Source of the DNA: Gammaproteobacteria bacterium
GTDB lineage: Bacteria; Pseudomonadota; Gammaproteobacteria; SZUA-229
Length of the DNA: 46,898 bases
Direction: 5' to 3'
NCBI GenBank assembly: GCA_024277705.1
Contig: JAJRUQ010000179.1
Coordinates: 1 to 46,898 of the forward strand
Below are positions 23,698-46,898 of this stretch, piece by piece. A model generated the notes under the pieces. That model ran no database searches. It had not been told where the DNA came from and saw only the letters and a program-made list of their open reading frames with translations. The stretch's first letter is position 1. Every line of letters starts with the position of its first letter. The position numbers and the translations under genes were made by a program.

Positions 23698-23712
23698 GTG
23701 GATATTCACTCA

Positions 23713-26418
23713 ATGTCAGAAAAAAAACCACCGCTAGTTCTTGTTGACGGCTCATCTTATTTATTCCGCGCGTTTCACGCTCTACCGCCGTTAACCAACA
23801 GTAAAGGTCAGCCGACCGGTGCTGTGTACGGGGTCATTAATATGCTCAACAAGCTGGTAGAGGAATACCGACCCGAGCATATTGCGGTGGTATTTGATGC
23901 CAAGGGAAAAACCTTTCGTAACGACTTGTATGAAGCATATAAGGCCAATCGGCCGCCAATGCCCGATGATCTGCGCTGCCAGATTGAGCCCCTGTATGAA
24001 CTGGTTGAGGCACTGGGATATCCCATGATTATTATTCCCGGTGTCGAGGCCGATGATGTGATCGGCAGCTATGCGACAAAAGCCAGTGAGCAGAAAATAG
24101 ATACGATTATTTCAACCGGTGATAAAGATCTGGCGCAGCTGGTGAACCCGCATGTAACTTTGATCAATACCATGAATAATATGCTGCTGGATGAGGCTGG
24201 TGTTATGGAAAAATTTGCCGTGCCACCAACTGCCATTATTGATTATCTGGCACTGATGGGCGACACCTCGGACAATATTCCGGGGGTGCCGAAGGTTGGA
24301 CCGAAAACGGCCGCAAAGTGGTTGCAGCAGTATGAAACACTGGATAATCTGATTGCTCATGCAGATGAGATTAAAGGTAAGGTCGGCGACAGCTTGCGGG
24401 CAAACCTGCAGCAGCTGCCCCTGTCGAAGGCTCTGACCACCATTAAGCGTGATGTGGATCTTGATCTTGATATTGCTGACCTGCAAATGCGGGAACCGGA
24501 CAAAAGCAGATTGCGGCAGATTTACCGTGATATGGAGTTTAAGCGCTGGCTGGCGGACATGGAGGCAGCAGCGGATGACGCGGTGTCCGGTGTGGCGGTA
24601 ACTGCGCCGGTGGCCAGCGAGTATGACACCGTGCTTGATGAAAAAACATTTGAACACTGGTTGCAGAAGCTGACATCGGCCGGGCAGTTTGCGTTTGACA
24701 CCGAAACCACCAGTCTTGATTATATGAAGGCCAGAGTGGTGGGTGTGTCCTTTGCCATAGAGGCTGGCAGGGCTGCTTATGTACCTTTCGGGCATGATTA
24801 TCCGGGGGCACCGGAGCAGCTGTCCGAGGCACTGGTTCTGGGGGCTTTGAAGCCGTTACTGGAAAACGAGTCTGTCGGTAAAATTGGCCAGAATCTTAAA
24901 TATGATGCCCATGTTCTGGAAAATCACGGTATATTTTTAACAGGTATCGCTCATGATTCAATGCTGGAGTCATACGTGCTGGACTCGACTAAGCGGCATA
25001 ATATGGATGCCCTGGCTTTGCGTTTTCTGGATCATCAGACCATTCATTTTGAAGATATTGCGGGCAAAGGGGCTAAACAGTTAACTTTCAATGAAATCGA
25101 TTTGGCGCAGGCCGGTCCCTATGCGGCGGAAGATGCCAACATTACCCTGCAGCTTCATCAGAAACTGAGTACCGAACTGGATAAAGAGCAGGCATTAATG
25201 CGTGTGTATCAGGAGATAGAGCTGCCGTTATTATCAGTCTTGTTGGGTATCGAGCGTAATGGGGTAAAAATCGATGTGCCTATGCTGGAACAGCAGAGCC
25301 AGCAGCTGGCCGAGCGCATGAAAGCGGTCGAATTGCTGGCTTATGAAGAAGCTGGGGAAAGTTTTAACCTGGCTTCACCGAAGCAGATTCAAAGCATCTT
25401 TTTTGAAAAGCTCAAATTGCCGGTAATCCGTAAAACCCCCAAAGGTGCACCATCAACCGCCGAAGATGTGCTGCAGGAACTGGCTGCTGATTATGCTCTG
25501 CCAAAACTTATTCTGGAACACCGCAGCCTGAGTAAACTGAAGTCTACCTATACCGACAAGCTGCCGTTACAGGTCAATGAAAAAACCGGGCGTGTACATA
25601 CGTCATACAACCAGACGGTTGCTGCGACCGGGCGTTTATCGTCAACAGACCCGAATTTGCAGAATATTCCGGTGCGCAGTGAAGAAGGCCGGCGTATTCG
25701 TCAGGCCTTTATTGCCGAGCCCGGGTATAAAATGCTGGCAGCAGACTATTCGCAGGTAGAATTACGCATTATGGCGCATTTGTCAGAAGATGAGAGCCTG
25801 TTGCAGGCGTTTTCTGAAGGTGTCGATGTCCATCGTGCAACCGCTGCCGAGGTTTTCGGTGTGGCACTGGATGCAGTGGAAAATGAGCAGCGCCGTGCGG
25901 CAAAAGCCATTAACTTTGGCCTGATTTATGGTATGTCGGCATTCGGTCTGGCAAAACAGCTTAATATCGGTCGTTATGAAGCACAGGATTACATCGACAC
26001 TTATTTTGCACGTTATCCGGGAGTGAAAGCCTATATGGATGCGACCCGTGCACTGGCGCATGATAAAGGGTATGTTGAGACCGTGTTTGGCCGGCGTTTA
26101 TATCTGCCGGAAATTAATTCACGAAATGGTCAGCGCCGGCAATATGCCGAGCGTACTGCAATCAATGCACCGATGCAGGGAACAGCGGCCGACATAATCA
26201 AACGTGCCATGATTACGGTGGATAAAGCGCTGCTCGGTAGTCAGCTTGATGCGCGTGTGGTTATGCAGGTTCACGATGAGCTGGTGGTTGAGGTTTTGGC
26301 AAAAGATGTGGATGCGGTGGCTGGTTTATTAACAACGGAAATGCAGCAGGCGGCATCATTAAAGGTGCCGCTGGTGGTCGATATCGGGGTGGGGGCCAAC
26401 TGGGATGAAGCGCATTGA
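23713..26418 (+). CDS. polA: DNA polymerase I
   Basis: A 901-residue polymerase with all three domains. The N-terminal 5'-3' exonuclease has LVDGSSYLFRAFHALPPL, VFDAKGKTFRNDLY and GDTSDNIPGVPKVGPKTA. The proofreading domain keeps its catalytic residues in FAFDTETTSLD. The polymerase domain has motif A AADYSQVELRIMAHLSED, motif B RRAAKAINFGLIYGMSAFG and motif C MQVHDELVVEV. The enzyme fills gaps in excision repair and matures Okazaki fragments. ATG 23713 is preferred to GTG 23698 because the family begins a few residues before the PLVLVDGSSYLFRAFHAL block. Confidence 0.97.
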   Translation: MSEKKPPLVLVDGSSYLFRAFHALPPLTNSKGQPTGAVYGVINMLNKLVEEYRPEHIAVVFDAKGKTFRNDLYEAYKANRPPMPDDLRCQIEPLYELVEALGYPMIIIPGVEADDVIGSYATKASEQKIDTIISTGDKDLAQLVNPHVTLINTMNNMLLDEAGVMEKFAVPPTAIIDYLALMGDTSDNIPGVPKVGPKTAAKWLQQYETLDNLIAHADEIKGKVGDSLRANLQQLPLSKALTTIKRDVDLDLDIADLQMREPDKSRLRQIYRDMEFKRWLADMEAAADDAVSGVAVTAPVASEYDTVLDEKTFEHWLQKLTSAGQFAFDTETTSLDYMKARVVGVSFAIEAGRAAYVPFGHDYPGAPEQLSEALVLGALKPLLENESVGKIGQNLKYDAHVLENHGIFLTGIAHDSMLESYVLDSTKRHNMDALALRFLDHQTIHFEDIAGKGAKQLTFNEIDLAQAGPYAAEDANITLQLHQKLSTELDKEQALMRVYQEIELPLLSVLLGIERNGVKIDVPMLEQQSQQLAERMKAVELLAYEEAGESFNLASPKQIQSIFFEKLKLPVIRKTPKGAPSTAEDVLQELAADYALPKLILEHRSLSKLKSTYTDKLPLQVNEKTGRVHTSYNQTVAATGRLSSTDPNLQNIPVRSEEGRRIRQAFIAEPGYKMLAADYSQVELRIMAHLSEDESLLQAFSEGVDVHRATAAEVFGVALDAVENEQRRAAKAINFGLIYGMSAFGLAKQLNIGRYEAQDYIDTYFARYPGVKAYMDATRALAHDKGYVETVFGRRLYLPEINSRNGQRRQYAERTAINAPMQGTAADIIKRAMITVDKALLGSQLDARVVMQVHDELVVEVLAKDVDAVAGLLTTEMQQAASLKVPLVVDIGVGANWDEAH

Positions 26419-26617
26419 GCAGGCAGCAAAGGGTGGAGGGCAGGAAGTTTTCTGTCAGTATTTCCAGTAAACAGTACGTTGCGCAACAATACTATTTTTT
26501 AAATGAATCTAAATTTATAAGCATTTGATTTATATGTAGATAATACTTTTTTCTCTAAAAAAACTTGTACCGTTCGTCGTTTTTATCCGCAAAATAACAC
26601 CGTTTGTCCGCTGTCTT

Positions 26618-26651
26618 TTGACATCTCTTTTTTATGGTCTTTAATTATAGT
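26618..26651 (+). promoter_or_regulatory. Putative promoter of the polA-engB sRNA
   Basis: A perfect TTGACA occurs at 26618-26623, followed after 17-22 bases by AT-rich -10 candidates in ttaattatagtt (26641-26652). Transcription would begin near 26655 and run into the hairpins and terminator downstream. Confidence 0.45.
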
Positions 26652-26654
26652 TAA

Positions 26655-26803
26655 GAGATTGTTGTACTGATAGCAGGAAGCATTCTTGTGAATACGCTGT
26701 AGCCCGGCGTGGGCTCGCTCTCTCCCTTTTGCGAGCCAACGGAATCGGCAACCCCAATCCGGTTCCATTTTTATTGCCCGGCCGTTTGGCCGGGCTTTTT
26801 TTA
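26655..26803 (+). ncRNA. Candidate small RNA between polA and engB (Spot 42/ErsA position)
   Basis: A roughly 150-base region with three successive hairpins. The first stem ggctcgc/gcgagcc (26712-26718, 26731-26737) encloses the pyrimidine loop tctctccctttt. The second ggaatcgg/ccggttcc (26741-26748, 26759-26766), with one G-U pair, encloses a loop with cccc. The third is the terminator. C-rich loops like these can pair with Shine-Dalgarno sequences. The polA-engB gap holds Spot 42 in enteric bacteria and ErsA in Pseudomonas, so position and structure agree. I see no sequence identity to Spot 42; the 5' end is estimated. Confidence 0.65.
26776..26802 (+). terminator. Strong rho-independent terminator of the sRNA candidate
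   Basis: An 8-base GC-rich stem gcccggcc/ggccgggc with loop gttt is followed by seven T residues. It points in the + direction and is too far from polA (about 360 bases) to be its simple end. Confidence 0.9.
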
Positions 26804-26880
26804 TTGCGAATTAAAAAAGTTTGCTGCGGCAGGTATATTAATCTGTTTGTTACTGGAAGAATGACTCAAAACGGCCAGAA

Positions 26881-27015
26881 AGAGAAGCTGTAAGTTAAAA
26901 GTTTTAAGTTATAAGTAGAAAGTCAAAAACTGGATAACCTTATGTTTAACAAGCTTCTTTTGATTTATGTTTTTAAACTTACAACTTAAAACTTCTCTTA
27001 AGGCTCAATGCCGGT
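26881..27015 (+). repeat. Palindromic intergenic repeat, copy B
   Basis: Second copy of the repeat at 23478-23587, about 135 bases. It has agagaagctgtaagtt on the left, the shared core ggataaccttatgtttaaca and cttcttttgattt, and ends in acttaaaacttctcttaagg. It is longer than copy A in the left arm, which carries extra aagttttaagttataag. It lies between the sRNA terminator and the 3' end of engB. Confidence 0.75.
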
Positions 27016-27029
27016 CATTGGTTACGGTG

Positions 27030-27656
27030 TTATGTCTGCATCAGCCATTCATCAAGTTTACTCACCAGTTCATCCAGTCCGGTTTTTTTCAAGGCAGAAA
27101 AAGTCTGCACACTGACATCAATGCCTTCTTCTTTAAGCAGTTTGCGGGTTTTTAACAGGCTGTTTTGCTGTGCACCGCGTTTAATTTTGTCCGCTTTGGT
27201 TAATAAGACATGCGCCGGCAGTTGATAATGCTGACACCATTCCAGCATCTGCCAGTCATAATCATTCAGCGGGTGGCGGATATCCATGATGACAATCAGG
27301 CCGTTTAGTGCGGTTTGCTCGCTCAGGTACTGTGTCATCAGTTTTTCCCATTCTTTTTTAATGGCCACCGGCACTTTGGCAAAACCATAACCGGGAAGGT
27401 CGACCAGGCGTCGTTCCTGGTCCAGTTCAAAAAAGTTTACCAGGCGGGTTCTGCCGGGTGTTTTACTGGTGCGGGCAAGGCCTTTGTTATCGCATAAGGT
27501 GTTAAGTGCGCTGGATTTTCCTGCATTGGAGCGCCCGGCAAAGGCTACTTCACTGCCATGTTGCGGAAACTGTTTTGCATTGCCGGCGCTCAGTAGAAAA
27601 GTGGCCTGCCGGTAATGGCGGTTATCGGCTTTTGGTTTATTCACATGATTATTCAT
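27030..27656 (-). CDS. engB: Ribosome biogenesis GTPase EngB (YsxC/YihA)
   Basis: A 208-residue TRAFAC GTPase needed for assembly of the large ribosomal subunit. G1 is GRSNAGKSS, the switch region TSKTPGRTRLVNFFEL, G3 DLPGYGFAKV, G4 TKADKIKRG and G5 TFSALKK. The N-terminal extension FLLSAGNAKQFPQHGSEVAF is normal for the family. It faces polA and the sRNA candidate and is divergent from cytochrome c4, as in Pseudomonas and several other gammaproteobacteria. Confidence 0.96.
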   Translation of the reverse strand: MNNHVNKPKADNRHYRQATFLLSAGNAKQFPQHGSEVAFAGRSNAGKSSALNTLCDNKGLARTSKTPGRTRLVNFFELDQERRLVDLPGYGFAKVPVAIKKEWEKLMTQYLSEQTALNGLIVIMDIRHPLNDYDWQMLEWCQHYQLPAHVLLTKADKIKRGAQQNSLLKTRKLLKEEGIDVSVQTFSALKKTGLDELVSKLDEWLMQT

Positions 27657-46601: not shown

Positions 46602-46629
46602 AAAAAAGGCAGGACCAAATGGTCCTGCC
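46602..46629 (-). terminator. Rho-independent terminator of the cold-shock gene
   Basis: Stem ggcaggacc/ggtcctgcc (46608-46616, 46621-46629) with loop aaat; on the minus strand it is followed by a run of six T. It lies about 25 bases after the cold-shock stop codon. Confidence 0.9.
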
Positions 46630-46654
46630 CTTTGTAATTAGCAAAAGTAATTAC

Positions 46655-46867
46655 TTATAGAGTAACAATGTTCTCTGCTTGCGGGCCTTTTGGGCCTTGA
46701 GTTACTGTGAACTCAACTTTCTGACCTTCAGACAGGGTTTTGAAACCTGATGAATCAGCAATTGCACTAAAATGAGCAAATACATCGGGTCCAGACTGCT
46801 GCTCGATAAAACCAAAACCTTTAGAATCGTTGAACCATTTAACGGTTCCATTAACTGTGTTAGACAT
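46655..46867 (-). CDS. CspA-family cold shock protein
   Basis: A complete 70-residue cold shock domain with RNP1 KGFGFIEQ and RNP2 DVFAHFSAI, opening [16 protein letters not shown] and ending [10 protein letters not shown]. It binds single-stranded RNA and DNA and relieves secondary structure. The window ends 31 bases upstream, so the long leader usual for such genes is mostly outside. Which paralogue it is (CspA, C, D or E type) cannot be told. Confidence 0.96.
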
Positions 46868-46898
46868 AATAATATCCTGTGTTATATAAATAATGTGC

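Follow-up and report, generated by a model that had tools for sequence, protein, structure and literature searches.

A conserved, structured small RNA gene between polA and engB in a gammaproteobacterium, a likely divergent relative of the ErsA/anti-hemB group

It is nearly certain from the comparisons presented here that the gap between polA and engB in the DNA under study contains a gene for a structured small RNA (sRNA), which we infer to be transcribed. The best explanation, and one that we consider probable, is an independently transcribed, trans-acting sRNA of about 150 nt, related to ErsA and anti-hemB, the C-rich loops of which would pair with mRNAs. The whole stretch of DNA analyzed, hereafter called the window, comprises 46,898 nucleotides and is one contig of an incomplete metagenome-assembled genome. 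In it, the open reading frames of polA (23698-26418, plus strand) and engB, also known as yihA (27030-27656, minus strand), converge on a gap of 611 bp; orthologues of both genes adjoin the RNA in related loci, and the same genes were retrieved regardless of whether the E. coli EngB/YihA or the EngB of the window was used as query. An earlier, sequence-only reading had proposed a structured sRNA gene in this gap, the locus of Spot 42 and ErsA, and this proposal is now strongly supported by conservation in the genus and by compensatory base changes.

The members in the genus were first found by plain BLAST, before any covariance modelling. Of the 17 other genomes in the genus, 15 yielded the element when positions 26600-26810 served as query, as did 7 of 19 genomes from other genera of the family. 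Across the genus, conservation begins near position 26683 and stops at the T-run, and the flanks are not conserved. When 23 sequences were compared, 99.1% of the cells in the consensus structure were standard pairs, and 16 of the 30 pairs had changed on both sides, against 7.3 ± 1.9 on shuffling (0/500 shuffles); the covariation signal was abolished by sliding the pair partners. Among 65 sequences from the whole class, 28 of 30 pairs had changed on both sides, a figure that leans towards the model because this alignment was fitted to it. The fold energy of positions 26653-26803 was also exceptionally low (z = -4.17), and none of 200 shuffled sequences scored as low. Coding content of the transcript was considered and rejected, since its open reading frames do not exceed 11 codons and the frame is not conserved; similarly, a 61-codon antisense reading frame (26583-26768) was dismissed as an open frame only.

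The conserved body of the RNA (26683-26803, plus strand) scored 136.4 bits with R1, the covariance model of the window RNA family. It is preceded by a predicted 5' leader of about 30 nt (26652-26682, plus strand), conserved neither in sequence nor in length; across f1, the family of the window, the distance from the -10 hexamer to the conserved block indeed varies from 18 to 74 nt. The body folds into three hairpins and a terminator, all on the plus strand. The first hairpin, H1 (26693-26711), has the loop UAGCC, and 94% of its cells are paired class-wide. H2 (26712-26737) carries the loop UCUCUCCCUUUU (26719-26730), with compensatory changes in all seven pairs, and H3 (26741-26766) carries the loop CAACCCCAAU (26749-26758), with compensatory changes in five of eight pairs; both loops are candidate seeds. 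The two hairpins previously noticed in this gap correspond to H2 and H3, to which H1 is now added. The strong terminator noticed there was likewise recovered as an intrinsic terminator (26776-26802), in which an 8-bp GC stem (26776-26795), with compensatory changes in three of eight pairs, is followed by U7. The C-runs in the loops of H2 and H3 are kept while the stems vary: class-wide, CTCCC occurred in 55 of 65 H2 loops against 1.7 expected, and CCCC in all 65 H3 loops against 4.5 expected, both excesses being inflated by model selection.

To assess the spread of the RNA, 369 genomes were drawn evenly from the GTDB class Gammaproteobacteria. The covariance search that the sequence-only reading had suggested did find relatives, R1 matching 112 of the 369 genomes at E <= 0.01, and at E <= 1e-5 a broadened model, R2, matched 181 genomes, which represent 136 of 272 genera. 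The window RNA itself scores far above background with R1 and R2 and lies in the polA-engB locus; both models were, however, trained on sequences that include it, so that its membership in the wider set rests on the relatives that R1 found and on the anti-hemB model, which is independent. Genes for polA and/or engB lie within about 1.5 kb at 27 of the 29 best-match R1 loci and adjoin 54 of 69 fetched loci when weak ones are included, which offers independent support for the R1 relatives, since synteny lies outside the model. One locus lacking both genes adjoins a cytochrome c4 gene, which, by its open reading frame, succeeds engB in the window. Overall, roughly half of the class, as sampled here, had an RNA in the polA-engB position. 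Good copies also occur away from polA and engB (L104, L116, L127, L136), some of them in tandem, and tandem copies are common, reaching four at one locus (L149). The two to four tandem copies in other genera have diverged (L068, L073, L084, L088, L107, L127, L135, L136, L149), which suggests that they are sibling sRNAs. Weak cut-offs let in false matches consisting of a terminator only, and several candidates were discarded: five weak class matches that look like terminators of ordinary genes (L129, L130, L133, L137, L139), the terminator-only R1 matches in Pseudomonas outside the polA locus, and pattern matches in Pseudomonas, Acetobacter and others, which were chance 19-mers of just 11-16 bits.

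The surroundings of the RNA yielded some observations of their own. A MITE-like inverted-repeat element of about 140 bp (26872-27012) lies between the sRNA terminator and engB; BLAST matched it 53 times in the genome, often at contig ends and in about 40 cases over nearly its full length, and a copy-like stretch of it is also found 3' of hfq. The sRNA recurs with 89% identity on another contig of the same assembly, where the engB that comes after it is 84% identical to that of the window (L024, C60:1-102; L189); this second copy most likely represents a mixed-in relative, the contamination of the assembly being 5%. A scan of the entire window at Rfam cut-offs returned a single match, a minus-strand cspA thermoregulator leader truncated by the window end (46602-46898), and none at the sRNA.

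Comparison with the individual Rfam models nonetheless placed the RNA close to two known families. With the anti-hemB model (RF02837) the window RNA scored 25.4 bits, below the cut-off of 49.5, with E = 0.00107 in the genome search; the match spans model positions 1-81 of 81 over 26710-26804 and preserves the anti-hemB order, in which a hairpin with a C-rich loop is followed by a GC terminator. The same model found 203 of the 369 genomes at E <= 0.01, only 20 of them above its cut-off; 42 of 54 strong R1 sites are anti-hemB sites as well, and 17 of 20 further loci found with RF02837 adjoin polA or engB. The ErsA model (RF01719, Pseudomon-1; cut-off 50 bits) found no match in the window's own genome even at E <= 0.01, and 14 of its 25 matches coincide with R1 or anti-hemB sites. 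In the reverse direction, R2, which was trained without any known Pseudomonas sequence or any cut-off match to RF01719 (G197, the sole such carrier, was left out), recognized the polA-engB gaps of Pseudomonas antarctica (E = 8.6e-7), P. costantinii (2.1e-6) and Halopseudomonas pelagia (1e-4), and also G197, a further ErsA-model locus (5.5e-4); the ErsA model itself scored above its cut-off at the gaps of P. antarctica and H. pelagia. However, two terminator-like sites, L137 and L133, reached 9.2e-7 and 1e-4 in the same R2 search; thus, the R2 scores at ErsA are not proof by themselves, and the weight of the ErsA kinship is carried by the common locus and the overlapping model matches. The cmscan output gave no clan for RF02837 or RF01719.

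It is unlikely, in our judgment, that the RNA is an independent sRNA that came to resemble its counterparts at the ErsA/anti-hemB locus by convergence of C-rich loops. Short GC-rich hairpins and terminators do yield weak cross-matches, the window RNA falls under the Rfam thresholds, and the hairpin layout of ErsA is different; yet the intermediates are graded, the same sites are matched by the R1, anti-hemB and ErsA models, the last two of which were built by others, and most relatives have the locus and the promoter type in common. The RNA is therefore likely akin to the ErsA/anti-hemB group; as it scores below both Rfam cut-offs, it is filed as a divergent relative and not as a catalogued ErsA or anti-hemB. 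The earlier statement that it occupies the same place as Spot 42 and ErsA holds, but falls short in that the RNA is more than co-located, being detectably related to anti-hemB and ErsA by model overlap.

How such an RNA might act is suggested by sX13 of Xanthomonas, which is encoded just downstream of polA, has three stem-loops with C-run loops, and, with no need for Hfq, represses mRNAs in which G-rich motifs lie close to the start codon, that of hfq among them (PMC3771888). By analogy, and considering the conservation of the loops, it is plausible that the C-rich loops pair with Shine-Dalgarno sites: the CUCCC of H2 and the CCCC of H3 would bind mRNAs at G-rich motifs, either Shine-Dalgarno sites or enhancers, and thereby repress their translation, as sX13 does, possibly with the assistance of Hfq at the U-tail. 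An RNA that instead binds a protein, as a sponge of the Hfq, ProQ or CsrA type, or that sequesters ribosome or 16S-like contacts, without defined mRNA pairing, appears quite improbable. Such a role would suit the strong conservation of the loops, and when the loops were matched against 253 sampled start regions (with crude gene starts), 8 of 100 and 10 of 100 shuffled loops did as well as the real ones, so that no significant pairing emerged; nevertheless, GGA loops of the CsrA-sponge type are absent, and the C-rich loops of the polA-adjacent sX13 act through mRNA pairing (PMC3771888).

For the mRNA-pairing sRNA that we favor, hfq stands out as the strongest individual candidate among possible targets. 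The gene is present in the window's own genome, and in 11 of the 14 readable genomes of the genus GGGG occupies the Shine-Dalgarno position of its leader, as compared to 10 of 235 sampled genes (4%); three members of the genus have GAGG in its place. In the window's genome, hfq and loop 3 could form four contiguous C-G pairs with a bulged extension (-9.0 kcal/mol), and the predicted pairing is longer in some relatives, reaching -16.4 kcal/mol. We regard this as a lead and not as evidence of regulation. Separately, in most genomes of the genus (L176, L199-L212), hfq is preceded by a sigmaE-type GAAC-N17-GTC about 61 nt before the start codon, at a conserved position.

The promoter of the window RNA is predicted to be of the sigma70 type, TTGACA-N16-TTTAAT on the plus strand. 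The perfect -35 box noticed in the initial reading is indeed present (TTGACA, 26618-26623), and the -10 hexamer TTTAAT (26640-26645) lies, after a 16-nt spacer, inside the conserved GTCTTTAAT; transcription is predicted to start near 26652. An automatic promoter scan had passed over this pair solely by requiring A at the second position of the -10 hexamer. Of 22 f1 upstream regions, 15 contained TTGAC-N17-TTTAMT against 0.005 expected on shuffling, and GTCTTTAAT was exact in 17 of 24; these regions are kin, so that motif counts in f1 do not represent independent events. Upstream of the promoter lies a box of the form ACC-N3-YRTC (ACCGTTTGTC, 26599-26608, plus strand), a candidate operator or activator site. 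It occurred in 15 of 24 f1 upstream regions against 0.4 expected on shuffling, and in 13 of the 15 carriers, from several genera, the distance from its start to the -35 hexamer is 19 nt (once 20); the position is kept even in species that have lost TTGAC. The RNA would be driven from this promoter of the sigma70 type, on which a regulator bound to the ACC box probably acts.

Outside f1 a different promoter prevails. GAAC-N15-19-GTC, which we take to be the sigmaE/AlgU promoter type, was found upstream of 38 of 68 relatives' copies outside f1, where shuffling would give 1.4. With few exceptions it lies 22-28 nt ahead of the start of the model and hence outside the modelled region; its form in most relatives is GAACTT-N15-GTC at a fixed distance. 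In contrast, none of 22 f1 upstream regions had a sigmaE promoter, and a GAACTT in a few species of the genus was dropped as a candidate sigmaE box since its spacing does not fit. The change of promoter in f1 is well supported as a sequence pattern, while its function is putative. Loss of the sigma factor does not account for this change, since rpoE is present in the window's own genome, where by eye a sigmaE-type sequence precedes it. Most likely, the family started out with a sigmaE-dependent promoter, comparable to that of ErsA, which depends on sigma22 (PMC7565897), and this promoter was replaced in f1. That the element is simply the terminator of polA or a structure in its 3'UTR, or else a barrier that separates polA from the convergent engB, with no separate sRNA, is very unlikely. 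It does end in a strong terminator with convergent genes on either side, but a terminator needs no conserved promoter 200 nt past polA, and three further hairpins that covary and keep their loops would be superfluous to it; relatives have their own fixed-spacing sigmaE promoter and as many as four copies in tandem, and not every copy is found near polA.

Overall, these results point to a single sRNA family at polA-engB that is old, has C-rich seed loops and is largely missing from catalogues, and to which two separately filed Rfam families are tied. The family probably belongs to the sigmaE regulon in most genera; the f1 lineage has retained the RNA, but there the type of promoter seems to have changed. 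A bolder proposal, offered tentatively, is that an ancestral sigmaE-dependent sRNA, present in about half of the gammaproteobacterial genera (as defined by GTDB), unites ErsA, anti-hemB and possibly sX13, and was rewired in f1 from the sigma factor of envelope stress to sigma70 and a new fixed-distance operator, with hfq as a target; if true, a stress RNA came under other control in f1. sX13 has been reported only in Xanthomonadaceae, and its authors asked whether polA loci elsewhere carry similar RNAs (PMC3771888), a question that the models and loci described here make directly testable.

Among known systems, anti-hemB (RF02837) of Burkholderia, called ncS04 in B. cenocepacia, resembles the window RNA in its CUCCC-loop hairpin, second hairpin and GC terminator, and tandem copies occur in both groups; the window RNA adds the 5' hairpin H1 and a leader. 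ErsA shares the C-rich loops and the terminator, is recognized weakly by R2, and corresponds in position, as ersA sits in the polA-engB gap (PMC8575079); it differs in hairpin layout and in being transcribed by sigma22/AlgU, whereas the window has no sigmaE/sigma22 promoter of the form GAACTT-N15-16-TC/GTC. Spot 42 (RF00021) occupies the same polA-engB (yihA) locus in E. coli with a different structure. The initial reading had seen no match to it, and in agreement RF00021 (cut-off 80 bits) found nothing in the window's own genome and R2 had no match on E. coli spf; homology to Spot 42 was thus rejected in either direction. Finally, sX13 is, by its published description, similar in being polA-adjacent with three stem-loops; in the window RNA, the loops of H2 and H3 carry CCC and CCCC, while the UAGCC loop of H1 has no C-run.
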